Assembly: GCA_030527205.1 (NCBI GenBank)
Contig: JAUNBG010000001.1
Coordinates: 225,053-289,052 of the forward strand
DNA from: Planctomycetia bacterium
Lineage (GTDB): Bacteria > Planctomycetota > Planctomycetia > Pirellulales > Thermoguttaceae
Length of the DNA stretch: 64,000 bases
Reading direction: 5' to 3'
Below the pieces are notes generated by a model that was given only the letters and a program-made list of their open reading frames with translations, had not been told where the DNA came from and made no database searches. Below are positions 8,775 to 61,203 of the stretch, in pieces. The position numbers and the translations under genes are program-made. The number at the start of each line of letters is the position of its first letter. Position 1 is the stretch's first letter.

Positions 8775-8887
8775 AAGGAAGTTCTAAAAATCTGTTTTTT
8801 ACAATAAACTCTATTCGTCAAACGTCGCGAAAACCTGTTTCTGAGGACGAGACATCCGCGTTCCCCGCGGTTTTTTAGAATTTCCTT
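8775..8887 (-). repeat. 110-bp palindromic element, copy A (inverted)
   Basis: Ends in AAGGAAGTTCTAAAAA on the left and TTTTTTAGAATTTCCTT on the right. The internal GGACGAGACATCC is the reverse complement of the core hairpin seen in the other copies, so this copy is in the opposite orientation. It lies just downstream of the hydG stop and fills most of the space between the permease and hydG. Confidence 0.75.
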
Positions 8888-13887: not shown

Positions 13888-13998
13888 AAGGAAGTTCTAA
13901 AAACCCTTTAGGAACGCGACGTCTCGTCCGCAAGAACTAAACTTAATGACTTTATCCGAAATGTGTGAGTTGAAAAATCTGGTTTTTTGAACTTCCTT
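13888..13998 (+). repeat. 110-bp palindromic element, copy B
   Basis: Begins AAGGAAGTTCTAAAAA and ends TTGAACTTCCTT. The internal CGACGTCTCGTCCGC is the core hairpin with one base missing from its left arm. The right end overlaps the pyrD stop codon by two bases. Confidence 0.8.
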
Positions 13999-19341: not shown

Positions 19342-19371
19342 TTTTTGATAACTGATTCGTTTATCTTCTCT

Positions 19372-19482
19372 GGATGTTCTAAAAACTCCTCAGGAACGCA
19401 GACGTCTCGTCCGCAAGAACTCGTTTTAACGATTTTATCCGAAATGCGTTTGTTGAAAAATCTGGGGGGTTAGAACTTCCTT
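19372..19482 (+). repeat. 110-bp palindromic element, copy C
   Basis: The left end is degenerate (GGATGTTCTAAAAA) and the right end is TTAGAACTTCCTT. The internal GCAGACGTCTCGTCCGC is the core hairpin with one mismatch. It lies in the spacer between the aldehyde dehydrogenase and the small membrane protein of the BMC locus. The remaining 300 bp of the spacer show no other feature. Confidence 0.8.
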
Positions 19483-21433: not shown

Positions 21434-21544
21434 AAGGAAGTTCTAAAACCCCTTAAAAACGCGGACGTCTCGTCCGCAAGAACTCGTTTTAACGACTTTA
21501 TCCAAAATGCCTTTATTAAAAAATCCTGATTTTTAGGACTTTCT
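21434..21544 (+). repeat. 110-bp palindromic element, copy D
   Basis: Begins AAGGAAGTTCTAAAA and ends TTTTTAGGACTTTCT. The core GCGGACGTCTCGTCCGC is a perfect 7-bp hairpin with a TCT loop. It lies in the BMC locus between a EutN gene and the aldehyde dehydrogenase. Confidence 0.85.
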
Positions 21545-39841: not shown

Positions 39842-40491
39842 ATTTGACTTTCCTCTAATATCAATTGATTTGCTGAACTATTTCTTAACCCAGTTATTCG
39901 TTGCCGTTATTTCGTCGATGTTATGGTCAAAAATCTTTGAACTTCCTGATTTGTTCGTTCTTGTTTCATTCAAAAAGGAAGAATTGGAGATTTTCAACAG
40001 TCAGGAACACAGAACTTGGAATACAAGAAAAGTTTATATTGAAGCCGGCTGTGTGAAAGGTTTGCCCCTTTGTAATTATCTGATCGCATAGGGGCTTGCG
40101 AACTCAACATCTGGAATCTTAAATTGGCTTGAAAATACAGGACGATTGTGATTGTGAATTTTGTGTTGCAAGAAATGAATTTCGTTGTCGTATTAAATAT
40201 TTGAATGTTTAAGATTTCCGTAATCCATCATAAATATTGTTGTTGACTTTTGACTGTTCTAAAAACGTCCATTCTGATTCCGACTCAATTTTACAGAGCC
40301 GTATTTTACAAAAGGCGCAAACGAAACGTTCGCGATCCCGACCGGATTGGGAACCGTTCTTTTCATTTTAAGTCGTTTCATAACTCTTTTTTCTTAATAA
40401 TTCGTATTTAGAGAGTCAAATTGCCAACAAACTGCAAAGCGGCTTAAAATAATCGTTCCCAAACCAGTCAAAGCGCAAATGGTTCCGGATT
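39842..40491. other. intergenic region, no feature confirmed
   Basis: 650 bp between uppP and purA. A 73-codon frame (39870-40091, +) has no family resemblance. A TGTTCTAAAAACG at 40256 recalls the left end of the 110-bp element, but no core hairpin or right end follows. Confidence 0.45.
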
Positions 40492-43022: not shown

Positions 43023-43132
43023 AAGGAAGTTCGAAAAACCGGTTGGGAACGCGGACGTCTCGACCGCAGGAAATGGTTTTCGTGACGTTTTCCGAATGGA
43101 ATTTAATGCAAACAGGTTTTTAGGACTTCCTT
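43023..43132 (+). repeat. 110-bp palindromic element, copy E
   Basis: Begins AAGGAAGTTCGAAAAA and ends TTTTTAGGACTTCCTT. The internal GCGGACGTCTCGACCGC is the core hairpin with one mismatch. It lies upstream of the large envelope-protein gene. Confidence 0.85.
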
Positions 43133-58049: not shown

Positions 58050-58162
58050 AAGGAAGTTCTAAAAATCTGTCGGGAACGCGGACGTCTCGTTCGCAGGAAC
58101 AGGTTTTTAAAACGCTTAATGAATTGGGGTTATTGCACAAAACAGGTTTTTAGAAATTCCTC
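58050..58162 (+). repeat. 110-bp palindromic element, copy F
   Basis: Begins AAGGAAGTTCTAAAAA and ends TTTTTAGAAATTCCTCC. The internal GCGGACGTCTCGTTCGC is the core hairpin with one G-T pair. It lies between capA and the first GT2 gene. The rest of 57890-58224 shows nothing else. Confidence 0.85.
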
Positions 58163-60934: not shown

Positions 60935-61203
60935 GAAATTGTTATAATAAAGGATGCTTTGTAACGCAAATCGTTTATTGCGGGTCGTTGATCAGGATCA
61001 TTCTTTTCATGACTTTAACGCTGTATCGCCGTTAAACGACTCGGGATACTATACGCTCATCTTTTTACCCATTTTAACGAAAACGCCGCAAATAGTGTTC
61101 CGTAAAATTTCTATTTATCGATTGCCTCCGTTGCGAAACAGCAGGTTACCGGCATAGAACCGAAAGAATAATGTCCGTCCGATCCTGGATTCGTTTCAAG
61201 GAA

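Follow-up and report, generated by a model that had tools for sequence, protein, structure and literature searches.

The question raised by this locus is what kind of element the 110-bp palindromic sequence at positions 21435 to 21544 (forward strand) represents and what moves it, given that similar sequences recur in the window, that is, in the whole stretch of 64,000 nucleotides analysed here. The original prediction had listed six intergenic copies of a family without coding capacity, and proposed either a MITE or REP-type element or a conserved structured RNA. All six copies were found in their places, no copy of the family has an open reading frame, and the core hairpin GCGGACG-TCT-CGTCCGC yielded seven matches in the window (one of them being its own mirror) against 0.03 expected. 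The limits given for the copies were too wide by one or two bases, since the outermost bases belong to the target-site duplication (TSD). With the corrected limits, four copies are bordered by a perfect 4-bp TSD: copy A (8776 to 8886, reverse strand; TTGA in element orientation), copy B (13889 to 13997, forward strand; TAAA on both sides), copy C (19371 to 19481, forward strand; TCTC on both sides), and copy E (43024 to 43131, forward strand; TCAA on both sides). The flanks of the feature under study, copy D, read AATA and GATA, and those of copy F (58051 to 58161, forward strand) read TCTA and CCTA, with three of the four positions matching in each case. The original prediction had listed target-site duplications among its checks but had missed those in the window.

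The left terminal inverted repeat (TIR) of copy D lies at 21435 to 21451 on the forward strand (AGGAAGTTCTAAAACCC; family consensus AGGAAGTTCTAAAAACC), and the right one, at 21530 to 21544 on the reverse strand, is degenerate. The REP-like hairpin follows at 21461 to 21477 on the forward strand, with its 5' GGARC tag mutated to AAAAC; its counterparts are located at 8843 to 8859 on the reverse strand in copy A and, on the forward strand, at 13915 to 13931 in copy B (where one base is deleted), 19398 to 19414 in copy C, 43051 to 43067 in copy E, and 58078 to 58094 in copy F. Length and ends had been described as constant; the ends are not perfectly so, those of copies C and D being degenerate. 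The variation reported for the central third is real, yet it falls into two loose sequence types instead of being free. As had been noted, copies C and D are placed between genes of the BMC locus (EutN/CcmL, aldehyde dehydrogenase, acetate kinase, and class II aldolase surround them), and copy B lies just outside, directly downstream of a dihydroorotate-dehydrogenase-like gene. With about one copy per 8.6 kb genome-wide, two copies in this locus are expected by chance, and we attach no special meaning to them.

The size of the family was estimated with a profile that was built from the six window copies and run over nine contigs of this genome (together 1.167 Mb, 30% of an assembly of 102 contigs and 3.95 Mb that is 79% coding). 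This census identified 135 separate loci, with full-length copies at 113, and the reversed-sequence control on the nine contigs gave no matches; the element is therefore clearly not confined to the six copies, a possibility that had been named as counting against the prediction. Extrapolation gives approximately 450 copies (about 457) per 3.95-Mb genome, and the family makes up about 1.2% of the sampled sequence. A direct count of patterns over the whole genome found 231 cores (two mismatches allowed) and 334 end sequences (one allowed), and none with the reversed patterns. The TIR sequence was absent from the three genus-mates searched, which indicates that the expansion is lineage-specific. 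Copies range from 103 to 113 bp, with a mode of 110 bp, and their median pairwise identity of 74% indicates that most of them are old.

The unit is bounded by AGGAA and TTCCT, its full ends being AGGAAGTTCTAAAAACC…GGTTTTTAGAACTTCCT, and the 17-bp TIRs diverge from their consensus by 8-11% on average. Immediately outside these limits, a perfect 4-bp direct repeat occurs in 45 of 104 copies and a match at three of four positions in a further 31; when the flanks of different copies were paired as a control, only 2.3% were perfect and 13.1% matched at three of four (p~1e-45). A scan of offsets and lengths placed the strongest excess at exactly these limits, with 4 bp as the longest length that keeps it. 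The target sequence has a preference for T at the first position, A at the fourth, and A or T between them (TWWA). The family thus presents the features by which a MITE is recognised: it is short, non-coding, and multi-copy, it has TIRs and a TSD of fixed length, and, as described below, an autonomous element with matching ends exists.

A transposase with matching ends had been suggested as a further check, and IS5-family loci with the same inverted ends are indeed present in the genome. We retrieved its DDE_Tnp_1 loci and compared their ends with those of the MITE. At C33:135625-136818 (1,194 bp), a frameshifted transposase locus is enclosed by inverted copies of the MITE's ends. The C75 locus (L193:861-2200, approximately 1.34 kb) also has MITE-type inverted ends and an open frame of 346 amino acids, without an in-frame ATG start and without a matching TSD, and the left end is found as well on C65 and C37, which are further partial or decayed copies of the partner. 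The start regions of the two transposases (L193:975-1030 and C33:135735-135790) were observed to differ in a T run, which is longer in C75 by two extra T after ATGGAAAGTTGGC; consequently, the C75 copy would need a TTG start or slippage for in-frame reading. The partner transposase scores 245.5 bits against the NCBIfam IS5 family NF033581 (cut-off 140) and belongs to Pfam DDE_Tnp_1. Over 1.15 Mb, just five TIR-like 17-mers with up to two mismatches lie outside the MITE loci, where 0.4 would be expected; the C33 element accounts for two of them, one at each end and in inverted orientation. None of the other DDE_Tnp_1 loci examined (L192, L194, L195, L197-L199, and L201-L203) has matching ends, so the match is not a general property of transposase loci. 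Only about 17 bp per end are common to the MITE and the IS5 elements; hence, the MITE is not a plain deletion derivative of the IS, and its interior is not IS-derived. Based on these shared ends, the MITE is most likely mobilised by the transposase of a larger transposon of the IS5 family.

A sequence-model search over 119 genomes of the same taxonomic family gave weak MITE-like matches, mainly in the sister genus g9, and a separate transposase search identified IS5 relatives in g9 at 37-40% identity. The g9 IS5 relative (37% identity) has the TIR GGGAACTTCTAAAAACC, which is shared by the g9 MITEs; the latter have the ends GGGAACTTCTAAAAA and lengths of 109, about 122, and about 130 bp. In many cases they are bordered by perfect 4-bp TSDs (TATA, TTAT, TTTA, TTAG, CTTT, TGAT, ACAA, TAAA, TCTT, TCAA, and TGTA). 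The complete g9 IS5 relatives L275 and L276 carry the g9 MITE ends, L276 with TTAA on both sides. Two genera therefore show the same association between this type of transposase and this type of MITE; in g9, an IS5 relative, a variant of the ends peculiar to the genus, and young MITEs make up an independent replicate of the pattern. Tagged hairpins are numerous in this genus, with about 800 in genome G157 and 773 in G045 and none in the reversed control; the G157 loci that were read lie inside IS5-type MITEs, and those of G045 lie in other repeats without those ends.

From these sequence comparisons, we consider it very probable that the family consists of IS5-type MITEs of about 110 bp that are mobilised by an IS5-family enzyme and amplified together with a captured REP-like passenger hairpin. 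A DDE transposase of the IS5 family, encoded at another site in the genome, would recognise the inverted ends of about 17 bp, and the element would insert into AT-rich intergenic targets, preferably TWWA, of which 4 bp would be duplicated. A few source copies would have transposed repeatedly and then decayed neutrally, leaving the copy number estimated above. Most likely, the ancestor of the MITE captured a REP-like unit once, and the hairpin would then have been amplified passively; it may have arrived by means of a RAYT or by recombination, and would now be a passenger, a status in favour of which we counted its nearest-neighbour divergence of 0.128, compared with 0.132 for the body of the element.

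The same data can be read differently, the whole element being a REP or REPIN moved by a RAYT and its inverted ends merely part of the palindrome. The element does contain a tagged hairpin of REP-like form, REPINs likewise occupy intergenic DNA in similar copy number, and the g9 MITEs hold the tagged hairpin as two complete inverted units, the arrangement that defines a REPIN (PMC3116915). Nevertheless, perfect 4-bp TSDs at the outer ends and identical ends on elements with a DDE transposase are signatures of DDE transposons, and the g9 elements L300 and L269 have the same ends without this REP, which fits a secondary capture of the hairpin. IS200/RAYT-type elements are not known to generate target-site duplications, and we regard RAYT-driven movement of the whole element as very improbable. 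Thus, of the two possibilities joined in the original prediction, the MITE assignment is strongly supported by the TIRs, the 4-bp TSDs, the high copy number, and the IS5-family elements with matching ends, and REP-type applies to the internal hairpin only, not to the element as a whole.

A conserved structured or cis-regulatory RNA (a terminator or stabiliser), spread through the genome and retained because selection favours its fold, is even less credible, and we rejected it. In its favour, the consensus folds far better than shuffled sequences (z -6.4), and across the family the hairpin is nearer to the consensus than the body (divergence of 0.132 against 0.219). The folding score, however, results from the consensus being palindromic, and between nearest neighbours the hairpin decays like the body, with the ends diverging slightly less, at 0.10-0.115. 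RNAalifold on 40 copies found 0 pairs and no common structure. At the hairpin pairs, 15 double changes were counted, close to the 13.6 that single-site rates predict; the pair at column 31/42 has them above expectation, and a formal pair count gave a slight excess over shuffles that is within what relatedness alone can yield. The lack of covariation in the core hairpin, which had been named as speaking against the prediction, is therefore largely true, but it bears on the RNA reading and leaves the MITE reading intact. No Rfam family matched the element. With respect to genomic context, the copies are intergenic (109 of 116 are at most half coding) and distributed in proportion to the space available, with no orientation preference relative to neighbouring genes (32 against 31). 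This pattern is what neutral insertions leave when selection removes those that disrupt genes, and it is not that of a regulatory RNA or terminator.

Judged by architecture, the hairpin and its tag constitute a REP-like unit, composed of the 5' tag GGA[AG]C and the 17-base hairpin, and it probably belongs to a widespread repeat class that flanks RAYT-type tyrosine transposase genes. Because exact 17-base matches in other genomes mix true repeats with chance matches inside genes, we used the tag as the statistic: a GGNNY tag is found 5' of the hairpin at 70 of 117 sites in other genomes, compared with 7 of 117 on the mirrored side. The observed tags are GGAGC, GGAAC, GGTGC, and similar ones, and not the canonical GTAG/GTRG of REPs. 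In other phyla, the tagged hairpin is an intergenic repeat, and the genus-mates of the studied genome have it in other contexts. RAYT-like Y1 transposase genes flanked by such hairpins were identified in five genomes of different lineages (L239, L258, L249, L259, and L243), in L239 and L258 as symmetrical inverted pairs; these genomes were selected for holding the hairpin, and the link between hairpin and RAYT is an association. The studied genome has a RAYT-like Y1 gene of its own (L131, C98:15865-19092) with five flanking GGAG[CT]-tagged units whose hairpin, GGGAACA-CTCY-TGTTCCC (GGGAACACTCYTGTTCCC), shares the architecture of the MITE hairpin and differs in the stem. The L131 reading frame was observed to stay open through the repeats, giving an open frame of 873 amino acids. 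No RAYT with the exact MITE hairpin was found in this genome or its taxonomic family, and none flanked by such a hairpin in g9.

The tagged hairpin is also part of a second repeat family in the same genome, whose members are unrelated to the MITE, measure about 200 bp, and number about 15 in the sampled contigs. This family has imperfect inverted ends, CTCTGTTGAATTTCTATTTATCGGTTG ... CAACCGACGTCTATTTATAACATTC, and contains the GGAGC-tagged hairpin; copies lie at C71:62614-62814, C6:116766-116964, and C79:79794-79982, and a fragment is located in the window at 61092 to 61156 on the forward strand. At C6:137565-137874 and C79:79772-80034, sequence of the second family interrupts a MITE copy or is fused to it, at the hairpin that both share or close to it, in a nested or recombined arrangement.

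These repeats lead to a third alternative, in which the hairpin is an active second module of mobility or recombination: a RAYT would insert REPs, or shared hairpins would recombine MITE families, and composites would keep forming. The occurrence of one tagged hairpin in two unrelated families of this genome and in the g9 MITEs points in this direction, as do the loci of the C6:137565-137874 type, where a MITE and a second-family copy look joined. There is also a precedent in Anabaena variabilis, in which GTAG-15 REP dimers lie within long palindromes (Di Nocera 2013, PMC3733652). On the other hand, the data are explained equally well if each family captured the hairpin once and then amplified it, and the RAYT that would act on this exact REP was not found in the studied genome; we consider an active module unlikely. 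Slightly less doubtful, though still tentative, is the broader suggestion that two unrelated mobility systems have been fused repeatedly in this bacterial family, RAYT-type REPs and REPINs entering IS5-type MITEs to form composites that either enzyme may move or reshuffle. If so, REPs and REPINs would acquire a further means of amplification, driven by a DDE enzyme, resulting in composite selfish elements. As for the captured passenger hairpin that we favour, both the direction of capture and any RAYT activity on the hairpin are matters that we infer.

Compared with known systems, the family resembles the IS5-family insertion sequences (NF033581) and their MITEs in its transposase family, its short inverted ends, its 4-bp TSD with a T..A target, and the matching ends on complete elements of the same genome, and differs from those MITEs in an interior that is not IS-derived and carries a foreign REP-like hairpin. 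It shares with REPs and REPINs that have RAYT (TnpA-REP) transposases the short tagged hairpin, the intergenic location, the high copy number, the inverted pairs of g9, and the neighbourhood of RAYT genes in other phyla; in contrast, the tag is GGA[AG]C-like instead of GTAG, and the hairpin is carried within a MITE of DDE-transposon type that has TSDs. The A. variabilis GTAG-15 dimers are likewise REP units within a longer palindrome with conserved ends, but in the portion of that paper available the outer palindrome is not assigned to a transposase and no TSDs are reported, and both the sequences and the phylum differ (PMC3733652). CGTC-tagged REPs are also hairpin repeats, and the letters CGTC do occur in the MITE hairpin; in the published definition, however, the CGTC tag is unpaired and terminal, with AT pairs at the base of the stem, whereas here CGTC belongs to the paired stem, and we rejected this identity (PMC3733652). 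ERIC, Correia/NEMIS, and comparable MITE-like repeats of bacteria are, like this family, palindromic, non-coding intergenic elements of about 100 bp in hundreds of copies, of unrelated sequence, and the MITE described here differs from them in having an IS5-type partner that can be named.

MITEs and REPs are both known classes, and the element described here is best read as an IS5-type MITE that took up a REP. We found no published description of this repeat family in this lineage, and searches of the open literature for the letters of the hairpin returned nothing. A high-copy family that occupies about 1% of the sampled genome has been identified together with its probable transposase. The combination suggests that REP-like hairpins can spread by DDE transposons and not by RAYTs alone, in which case REP copy number by itself is no proof of RAYT activity. 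The young g9 copies with perfect TSDs make the capture of REPs by MITEs directly testable. Within the window, the profile search returned the same six copies and one very weak match at 40256 to 40354 (E 0.007), which includes the hairpin-like stretch GGCGCAAACGAAACGTTCGCGATCCC and is probably a chance match or a decayed copy.
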